DNA from: Chloracidobacterium sp.
GTDB taxonomy: Bacteria > Acidobacteriota > Blastocatellia > Pyrinomonadales > Pyrinomonadaceae
Direction: 5' to 3'
Assembly: GCA_015075585.1 (NCBI GenBank)
Contig: JABTUB010000001.1
Coordinates: 682,001-746,000 of the forward strand
Length of the DNA: 64,000 nucleotides
Shown: piece by piece, positions 53,688 through 56,516 of the stretch
Position numbering within the stretch: the stretch's first letter is position 1
How the letters are laid out: each line of letters begins with the position of its first letter
The notes under the pieces: generated by a model
Told to the model about the DNA's origin: nothing
Seen by the model: the letters and a program-made list of their open reading frames with translations, nothing else
Database searches by the model: none
Program-made: the position numbers and the translations under genes

Positions 53688-55127
53688 TTAGCCGTTGAAG
53701 GCGACTTCACACAGGCACTTTTCCGGCCCCTTCTTTCTCTTCCAATTCACACCGGAGGGCGTGTCTTCGAGGACGATCTCGCGGGCGAGGAGCATGTCGC
53801 GGATCTCGTCTGCCCGTGCAAAGTCACGATCGCGCCGCGCGATATTACGCTGTGCTATAAGTTCCTCTATCTCGGCAGGGAGCATTTCTTTACGGCCGCT
53901 GCAGAAGATCGCTAAAACCGAGTCGAACTTTGCGACAGCCGCCAGAACTGCGTCCCGATCGTCAGAAAGAAGCGACGAATCGGACAATGAGATATTTACT
54001 TCGCGGATCAATCCGTGCAGGGCCGAAAGAGCGGCAGCAGTGTTCAGATTGTCGTCCATCGCATCTTCGAATGCAGCGAGGAACTTGCGGACCTTCTCTT
54101 GAAAAATCGGGCATCCGCCCGGCTCGAACTCGCCCTCGCGCATCCGATGAAAGAAATCGTGTATGCGCGCAACGGTACTCTGGGCACCATTCAGGTTGTC
54201 CGGCGTGAAATTAAGCGGCTTGTCAAAAGGAACCGAAAGCAGAAGATAACGCACCGCCAGCGGATCGTAATTAAGCCGCGTGAGGTCACGCAGCGTAAAA
54301 ACATTGTTCGAGCTTTTCGACATCCGCTCGTCATTGATGTTCAACACCTCGCCGTGCAGCCAGTATTTTACGAATGGCCGGCCTGTAGCACCTTCGCTCT
54401 GTGCGATCTCATTCTCGTGATGCGGAAATTTAAGGTCAACACCGCCGACGTGAATGTCGAAGCTTGTTCCCAGATACTTCATTGCCATCGCCGAGCATTC
54501 GATGTGCCAGCCCGGACGGCCTCTGCCAAAACGCGATTCCCAGCCGACAGGGTCGTCCTTATCAACAGATTTCCAAAGGACGAAATCGCACGCATGCTCC
54601 TTTCGATAGCGGTCCTTGTCGAGGCGTTCGCAGTCCGCGGGATCGTGAACTCGAACCCTCGTCAGCCGCCCGTAGCCTTCAAATGACGAGACGCGATAGT
54701 AAACCGAGCCTTGTGATTCGTATGCGTGGCCATTGGCGATGAGGCGTTCGATCAGCTCGACAATGTCATCAATGTGGTCAGTAGCACGCGGTGCAAACTC
54801 AGGGATCTCGCAATGGAGCGAGTGCATATCTTCCCAAAAAACCTCAATAAAACGATCTGTCAGCTCGTTCAGAGGTATTCCGCGAACCTCCGCTTCGGAT
54901 ACGATACGGTCGTTCACATCGGTCAGGTTCATGACGTGCGTCAAACGAAAGCCTTTATACCTCAGATAGCGCCGCAGCACGTCACCAAATACGAATGTTC
55001 GAAAGTTCCCGATATGGGCGTAGTTCCAGACGGTCGGGCCGCAGGTGTACATTTTGACCTCGCCGCCCGTGCCGATGGGGCGAAATTCTTCGATCTGTTC
55101 TGTCAAAGAGTTATGGATCTTTAACAT
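53688..55127 (-). CDS. cysS: Cysteine--tRNA ligase
   Basis: With the start at 55127 (MLKIHNSLTEQ) the enzyme has 479 residues, the normal length; the longer frame upstream has no family similarity. It shows KMYTCGPTVWNYAHIGNFR (about residues 24-42) with the zinc Cys and the HIGH motif, GWHIECSAMAMKYLG with the second zinc ligands, and ERMSKSSNN (about 264-272) as KMSKS. It charges tRNA-Cys. It is divergent from the ArsC-like gene with a UGA at the cysteine position, with 188 bases between. Confidence 0.96.
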   Translation of the reverse strand: MLKIHNSLTEQIEEFRPIGTGGEVKMYTCGPTVWNYAHIGNFRTFVFGDVLRRYLRYKGFRLTHVMNLTDVNDRIVSEAEVRGIPLNELTDRFIEVFWEDMHSLHCEIPEFAPRATDHIDDIVELIERLIANGHAYESQGSVYYRVSSFEGYGRLTRVRVHDPADCERLDKDRYRKEHACDFVLWKSVDKDDPVGWESRFGRGRPGWHIECSAMAMKYLGTSFDIHVGGVDLKFPHHENEIAQSEGATGRPFVKYWLHGEVLNINDERMSKSSNNVFTLRDLTRLNYDPLAVRYLLLSVPFDKPLNFTPDNLNGAQSTVARIHDFFHRMREGEFEPGGCPIFQEKVRKFLAAFEDAMDDNLNTAAALSALHGLIREVNISLSDSSLLSDDRDAVLAAVAKFDSVLAIFCSGRKEMLPAEIEELIAQRNIARRDRDFARADEIRDMLLAREIVLEDTPSGVNWKRKKGPEKCLCEVAFNG

Positions 55128-55315
55128 ATAACCCGCGCATAACGTCGAACACCGGCTCGATGGGCGGCCTTCGACATCAATTGAGATGATTTTACTATCT
55201 TTGCGCGGTATTTGATACACTCAAAGGCGTTCGTGCGAGCGATACCGATCTTAAGACCGATGAAGTGAACGGTTCAGCGACACATCAGCTCAGCGGATCA
55301 AAGGAAATTTCGAAT

Positions 55316-55657
55316 ATGGAAACGAGAATTACGGTTTACGAAAAGCCTACGTGAACGACTTGCCGCAATCTTGCGACGCTGTTTCGTGAAAACGGCATTG
55401 ATTACGAGAAGGTCAATTATTTTAATGAACCATTTACCGAAGCGGGGCTTGCGGCGCTTATAAAGAAGACCGGTATGCGCCCGATCGAAATGGTGCGCGG
55501 AGCGTCAGCGGCGGGTCTTTCAAATGAGACGCCGGATGGTGATGTGATCAAGGCAATGGCGGCCGACCCGAATCTTATTCAGCGGCCGATCGTCGAGGTC
55601 GGCAACAAGGCTGTCGTTGCTCGGCCATTGGAAAAGGCACTCGAGATCATCAAATGA
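55316..55657 (+). CDS. ArsC-like thioredoxin-fold protein, candidate selenoprotein (in-frame UGA at the catalytic Cys)
   Basis: An ATG at 55316, after an AAGGAAA site, opens a frame that reads ITVYEKPT and then TGA (55352-55354), TTCRNLATLF and on without another stop to 55657. With the TGA read as an amino acid the protein has 113 residues and matches the ArsC/Spx-type arsenate reductase family: YEKPTCxxC at the N-terminus and a C-terminal LIQRPIVEVGNKAVVARPLEKALEI. The TGA is exactly the first, catalytic Cys of the CxxC site, so UxxC is expected if it encodes selenocysteine. A Cys-to-stop mutation cannot be ruled out. Downstream of TGA lies only a weak hairpin (about 55371-55390, loop at 55379-55384), so a SECIS element is not proven. 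Confidence 0.72.
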
Positions 55658-55730
55658 TGACCGGAACGGCCGTGAACCGTGCGGGAAATTGGTTGGTTTC
55701 AGCGCTGAACGGTGCGAAAATTACGACGAC

Positions 55731-56516
55731 TTGAGCGAAGAACTTACACAATTCAGCTTTGATTTCTTTAAGGAATCGCCCGAGATCGTCCGCAGCGGCA
55801 GTGACCAGCTTAAGCTGAAGATCGGCGGCTTTGCGGGGCCGCTCGATCTGCTTTTGTATCTGATAAAACAGGAGCAGGCGAATATCTTTGATATACCGAT
55901 CGCACGGATAACGCGGAAGTATCTTGAGTTCATACAGCTCATGAAGCGTTTCGATATTGCGGTCGCGGCTGACTTCCTCGTGATGGCCGCCACGCTCATC
56001 GAGATCAAGTCGAAGATGCTTCTGCCGCGCGACCCCAAGGCCGATCCGGATGATGAAGAGTTCGACGATCCGCGAAAGGAACTCGTTGACCGTCTGCTTG
56101 AGTATGAAAAGTTCAAGACGGCCGCCGGTATGCTGCATGAACGCTCGACCATTGAGCAGGCGACGTTCACACGCGGCCAGATCGACGAGGACGAGAATAA
56201 TGCCGAGATCAGCGCGACTGTCTTCGACCTCCTGACCGTCTTTCAAAAGATCGCTGCACGGCACGCTGAGGCTGTGCAAATGGAGATCGAACGTGAAGAG
56301 ATCTCGCTGTCTGAAATGATCAAGACCCTCAAGCGGCGAATATTCGAGCTTGGTGAGATCAGCCTGCTCTCATTCTTTGAAGAGATGCCGACTCACCGTG
56401 AGCTTGTGACCGCATTTGTCGCTGTGCTTGAGATAGTGCGAACTGAGGATGTTAGGCTTACGCAAACGGCGACCTTTGGTGATATCATCCTGCAAAAAGT
56501 CTCGCCCGCCGCATAG
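55731..56516 (+). CDS. scpA: Segregation and condensation protein A
   Basis: The 261-residue (from the TTG at 55731) kleisin of the SMC-ScpAB condensin has the N-terminal FAGPLDLLLYLIKQEQANIFDIPI (about residues 37-60, partly quoted), the central VMAATLIEIKSKMLLPR and the C-terminal FFEEMPTHRELVTAFVAVLEI. The frame is open back to 55617, where it overlaps the ArsC-like gene; the TTG start fits family length better than the upstream ATG. The gene is followed by scpB, as in most bacteria. Confidence 0.92.
   Translation: MSEELTQFSFDFFKESPEIVRSGSDQLKLKIGGFAGPLDLLLYLIKQEQANIFDIPIARITRKYLEFIQLMKRFDIAVAADFLVMAATLIEIKSKMLLPRDPKADPDDEEFDDPRKELVDRLLEYEKFKTAAGMLHERSTIEQATFTRGQIDEDENNAEISATVFDLLTVFQKIAARHAEAVQMEIEREEISLSEMIKTLKRRIFELGEISLLSFFEEMPTHRELVTAFVAVLEIVRTEDVRLTQTATFGDIILQKVSPAA

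Follow-up and report, generated by a model that had tools for sequence, protein, structure and literature searches.

A predicted UxxC selenocysteine member of the ArsC family that alternates with cysteine forms in Acidobacteriota

ArsC-family proteins that carry selenocysteine (Sec, U) have been described from several sources. A UxxS ArsC selenoprotein was found in a Sargasso Sea set (PMC1088965), both UxxS and UxxC types were recovered from the Global Ocean Sampling (GOS) data (PMC2398784), an ArsC-like selenoprotein family is listed in PMC1794560, and one UxxS and one UxxC entry appear in each of two recent overviews of selenoproteins in prokaryotes (PMC9312934, PMC13188914), the UxxC entry of the latter carrying model NF041106. 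Here, we describe an ArsC-family gene of 113 codons plus a TGA stop on the plus strand (55316-55657) of a 64,000-nucleotide stretch of Chloracidobacterium sp. DNA (assembly GCA_015075585.1, contig JABTUB010000001.1, positions 682,001-746,000), the whole of which we term the window. The internal TGA of this gene is very probably read as Sec, likely by means of a predicted Sec insertion sequence (SECIS) hairpin together with SelA, SelB, tRNA-Sec and SelD, for all of which the genome has genes. The observations behind this reading are the frame itself, the alternation of TGA with cysteine (Cys) codons at one homologous column, the machinery genes and the conservation of the hairpin in TGA-containing copies. 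An initial annotation of this DNA had proposed a UxxC selenoprotein and regarded ArsC-family Sec proteins as known, which PMC1088965, PMC2398784, PMC9312934 and PMC13188914 confirm.

The window gene shares with the UxxS Sec-ArsC proteins (Sargasso Sea; 'ArsC 1' of GOS; TIGR00014 in PMC13188914) the ArsC family, a catalytic Sec and widespread Cys homologues, but it is of the UxxC type and resides in Acidobacteriota. With the ArsC-like UxxC selenoprotein ('Arsenate reductase 2' of GOS, cd03032; NF041106, ArsC_rel_Se_1) it has in common the UxxC motif in an ArsC-related protein; however, the window gave no match to NF041106 (cut-off 85 bits) at 1e-3, and seven scanned members of the closer clade of homologues delimited below scored at most 20.9 bits. 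ArsC selenoproteins are thus already known, and what is new is a lineage-wide member combining the ArsC-type arginine set with a UxxC motif.

The frame translates as METRITVYEKPT-TGA-TTCRNLA...EIIK followed by the terminal stop. Its sole internal stop is the TGA at 55352-55354 (codon 13), the predicted Sec and first residue of UTTC, which occupies the ArsC catalytic position (KPT-U-TTC), while the TGC at 55361-55363 encodes Cys16, the predicted resolving Cys of UxxC. The read-through product scores 41.1 bits against Pfam ArsC (PF03960; cut-off 24) and 26 bits against glutaredoxin, and the 2.97 Mb genome has no other ArsC-family match at E 0.001. Both the claim of a single TGA in an otherwise intact frame and its placement at the catalytic Cys of an ArsC-like CxxC site were therefore borne out.

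Among 162 genomes of the class, 109 contained a match, and the aligned set comprised 109 copies with at least 75 matched residues each: 98 closer copies (57 Sec, 41 Cys) and 11 more distant ones (6 Sec, 5 Cys). Five partial matches below 75 residues (in L064, L081 and L131) were excluded, and partial matches in G111, G118, G105:C38 and G027:C1:428939 likewise lie outside this set. At the column of the window's TGA, the aligned copies carry TGA in 63 cases, TGC in 31 and TGT in 15, with neither TAA nor TAG, and Cys stands three residues downstream in all 109. In the genome_contigs collection, whose organisms overlap those of the class genomes, the best 80 of 394 relatives divide into 32 with TGA (31 from Acidobacteriota, one without a phylum in its title) and 48 with Cys; within these 80, all 22 relatives from other phyla are Cys forms. 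Viral contigs yielded eight stretches that fitted a pattern, and none that was a relative. One locus (L064, G083:C15:129500-134001) holds a full TGA copy beside a second ArsC copy in two pieces in different frames, whose matched parts are free of stops; this split copy is likely a decaying duplicate.

All four genes whose presence the initial annotation had proposed to check are encoded in the genome: selA (549 bits, cut-off 268), selB (349 bits, cut-off 242), selD (358 bits, cut-off 125) and a tRNA-Sec with anticodon UCA (74.2 bits against a gathering score of 47, with 13 weaker matches below it). The selD gene has an in-frame TGA of its own (SCAG-TGA-VAKF; L020, G000:C1:55080-56000, minus strand), such that SelD is likely itself a selenoprotein, a family listed as such in PMC2398784 and PMC1794560. 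Across genomes, the link to the machinery was drawn through tRNA-Sec alone, using Infernal's stricter filters, by which a weak tRNA-Sec could go undetected. A tRNA-Sec match was found in 145 of the 162 class genomes, including those of all 63 TGA copies, while the ten copies from genomes lacking a match (73-99% complete) are all Cys (Fisher p 9.6e-5, uncorrected for kinship). The homologue comparison that had been suggested at the outset accordingly returned an alternation of Cys and TGA, the latter confined to genomes with a tRNA-Sec match. One genome, G117, has four tRNA-Sec matches above the cut-off.

The predicted SECIS hairpin (55378-55396, plus strand) consists of a 7-bp stem (55378-55384 with 55390-55396) and a 5-nt loop (55385-55389, CGTGA), at positions 27-45 counted from the U of UGA. 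Its statistics set the 57 TGA copies of the closer clade, 55 of them distinct, against the 41 Cys copies of that clade. In the former, the C, the G and the second G of the C-G-N-G loop are invariant, stem cells are paired in 94.0% of cases (84.5% in shuffles), double-changed cells number 51 (17.4 in shuffles), and pairing drops to 38-66% when the stem partner is slid along. Given the Sec set, RNAalifold proposed six of the seven stem pairs; given the 41 Cys copies, it proposed none. Of the 57 Sec copies, 54 keep the inner five pairs and the loop unbroken, as do 4 of the 41 Cys copies. At codons 11 and 13 from UGA the third position is silent, and among eligible copies 53 of 54 Sec ones (Fisher p 3e-14) and 16 of 20 Cys ones (p 0.02) match there as T-A or C-G, again with kinship uncorrected. 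The loop codon specifies Arg in all 57 Sec copies but in only 16 of the 41 Cys copies; in one of the 57 it is CGC, which six window genes use more often than any other Arg codon. Taken from sequence comparison, these patterns predict a SECIS-type hairpin with a conserved loop G just 3' of UGA in the TGA copies. Family f7, to which the six distant Sec copies belong (L122, L126-L130), has a different predicted hairpin that lies closer to UGA, and for L122 this family hairpin is the minimum-energy fold.

For the 98 closer copies, a tree computed after masking of the Sec codon and six hairpin codons calls for at least 18 changes between Sec and Cys, a rough number because 44 of its 95 inner branches are poorly supported and were drawn open. 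One Cys copy with an intact inner hairpin (L029) groups with the Sec copies nearest to that of the window, as would be expected from a recent Sec-to-Cys change. The Sec and Cys forms have been swapped repeatedly in this lineage, and genomes that gave no tRNA-Sec match have the Cys form. One genome, G122, holds both a Cys and a Sec copy (L094, L101), a natural comparison pair.

Several results temper the case for the hairpin and for its association with Sec. Five shuffle measures were used, and the two least inflated by kinship show no excess in the TGA copies: doubly changed pairs number 4 vs 3.4 in shuffles, and pair types 10 vs 11.4. The Cys copies are still 74.6% paired, with covariation above shuffles, so that part of the hairpin signal reflects coding or shared ancestry. 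Taken singly, the window sequence is no more stably folded than its shuffles (z -0.18 and -0.59), the minimum-energy fold of each of the three other closer TGA copies folded is a different structure, and an Rfam scan of 55200-55700 gave one match, far below cut-off, and no family. Since single-sequence folds are not unusually stable, the support for the hairpin is comparative; with the 7-bp stem and 5-nt loop found in this way, the SECIS evidence is better than its initial description as weak. Independent-pair tests confined to supported branches also stayed below significance, as pairs were few, many showed no difference and few branches were resolved: for Sec against hairpin, 3.6 of 5 pairs went the same way, none the opposite way and 1.4 showed no difference, and for tRNA against Sec the corresponding values were 1.3 of 3, none and 1.7.

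Other explanations of the internal TGA fare far less well than decoding as Sec. A fresh nonsense mutation, or a sequencing error, that happened to strike the catalytic codon of a pseudogene would look much the same, with one stop in a frame otherwise open. We regard this as vanishingly improbable, given that TGA recurs at the homologous codon in 63 of 109 copies, never replaced by TAA or TAG, the remaining 46 having TGC or TGT, that the window copy has no further stop and that the hairpin is kept in TGA copies; the initial argument that a chance hit was unlikely is thereby upheld. Reinitiation at an internal start, which would make the true product a shortened protein beginning after the TGA, draws on the database: 22 of 120 listed relatives (of 1603) cover just 83-84% of the query, and the five short ones fetched (96-97 residues) start with MATLFRENG, for example P0073 of Acidobacteria bacterium OLB17, whose DNA carries the TGA (L139). 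The shortened product would lack the active site, however, residues I5, Y8, K10, P11 and T12 ahead of the TGA show little or no variation, and the window copy has CTT rather than ATG at the internal start, all of which renders this explanation extremely improbable. Finally, TGA might be decoded as Trp or Cys by general reassignment or by a special tRNA, independently of any SECIS, and insertion of Cys would suit a column occupied now by TGA, now by a Cys codon. The gene itself also terminates in TGA (55655-55657), however, so TGA is not simply reassigned and also serves as a stop here; with tRNA-Sec(UCA), SelA, SelB and SelD present and a hairpin accompanying the TGA state, we consider such decoding very improbable.

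A question of a different order is whether a protein with Sec at this site reduces arsenate. Of the NCBIfam models, TIGR00014 (arsC) fits best both the window gene and the seven members of the closer clade that were scanned, and the window gene scores 74 bits with this model as compared with 56.3 at most with Spx models (Spx structure 1z3e). In E. coli ArsC (PDB 1i9d, 1jzw), the plasmid R773 protein, the catalytic residue is Cys12 within CGTS, where the window gene has Sec13 within UTTC. Arg61 (55496-55498), Arg90 (55583-55585) and Arg103 (55622-55624), all on the plus strand, align with Arg60, Arg94 and Arg107 of R773 ArsC, residues with roles in that enzyme, catalytic in the case of Arg60; an R60 mutant of E. 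coli ArsC occurs among PDB titles. The catalytic Cys/Sec and the three arginines of a glutaredoxin-type arsenate reductase are therefore all present, with R90 invariant and R61 and R103 nearly so in the 61 of 109 rows of the structure alignment. The six f7 Sec copies differ, having IGF or IGS (by eye) at the place of Arg103, and the best model for L128, the only f7 copy scanned, is Spx/MgsR. Sequence, predicted fold and the conserved arginines of the window protein fit a glutaredoxin-type arsenate reductase. Against the arsenate step stand the TIGR00014 score itself, which is under the equivalog cut-off of 106.05 (given also as 106), and several absences. In the 98.54% complete genome, neither Acr3 nor ArsB (TIGR00832, PF02040; other exporters were not searched) nor glutathione synthetase (TIGR01380; other glutathione enzymes were not searched), a further difference from the E. 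coli system, gave a match, and no ars gene that would point to an ars operon lies among the neighbours examined. A Sec redox protein that in vivo is no arsenate reductase, but for instance reduces disulfides in general or bacillithiol mixed disulfides, or acts as an Spx-like regulator, is a serious contender, if the less probable one: all three ArsC arginines are conserved, TIGR00014 is the best model throughout the closer-clade members scanned, and one of these, the Cys form L121, alone exceeds its cut-off at 118.2 bits.

In the mechanism that we propose, SelB would bind the predicted hairpin and deliver Sec at codon 13. The selenolate of U13 would attack an oxidised substrate; arsenate, with Arg61, Arg90 and Arg103 holding it in place, is the likeliest one. 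Cys16 would then resolve the U13 adduct as a selenenylsulfide, to be reduced by thioredoxin or a bacillithiol-linked redoxin. This choice of reductants follows from the synthesis gene seen, which is for bacillithiol and not glutathione: BshC is present (L214, G000:C2:62068-63657) and TIGR01380 was not found, making bacillithiol the likely low-molecular-weight thiol of this organism as judged from its genes.

As the initial annotation stated, the gene is divergent from cysS (53688-55220, minus strand), which occurs on the flank in the window's own genome only when the flanks of the 98 closer copies (about 1.5 kb per side, less at contig ends) are compared. Downstream on the plus strand follow scpA, scpB and a pseudouridine synthase gene, and scpA, with or without scpB, flanks 37 of the 98. 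The listed scpA frame (55617-56516, plus strand) starts with TTG inside the ArsC gene and has its ScpA domain from residue 82, so the overlap places the true start probably further downstream. Ten neighbouring open reading frames from eight other copies included no arsenic gene, two of the ten matching no family, and a promoter and terminator scan gave chance-level results only.

In PMC1794560, three selenoprotein families and four selenoproteins are counted for Acidobacteria, and deep-Sep lists three known selenoproteins for one member of the phylum (PMC12013277). By term counts, Acidobacteriota are unnamed in the main texts of PMC9312934 and PMC13188914, and our searches, which covered listings of open-licence papers only, brought up no Sec ArsC described from this phylum. 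A wider picture, which we advance as rather unlikely in its entirety, is that a Sec ArsC-type reductase arose among Pyrinomonadaceae and their kin, that its SECIS lies over the end of helix 1 and forces an Arg that Cys forms may discard, that bacillithiol takes the place of glutathione and Acr3 and ArsB are missing, that the protein does not serve to detoxify arsenic but is a selenium redox enzyme whose physiological kind is new, and that Sec and Cys flipped many times as Sec decoding was lost. The gene adds a lineage-wide predicted selenoprotein to Acidobacteriota, and it brings to light that the database entries of some relatives begin after the TGA and thereby lose the active site. Close Sec/Cys pairs within the clade, such as that of G122, would make measurable both what a SECIS costs the protein sequence and what Sec gains.
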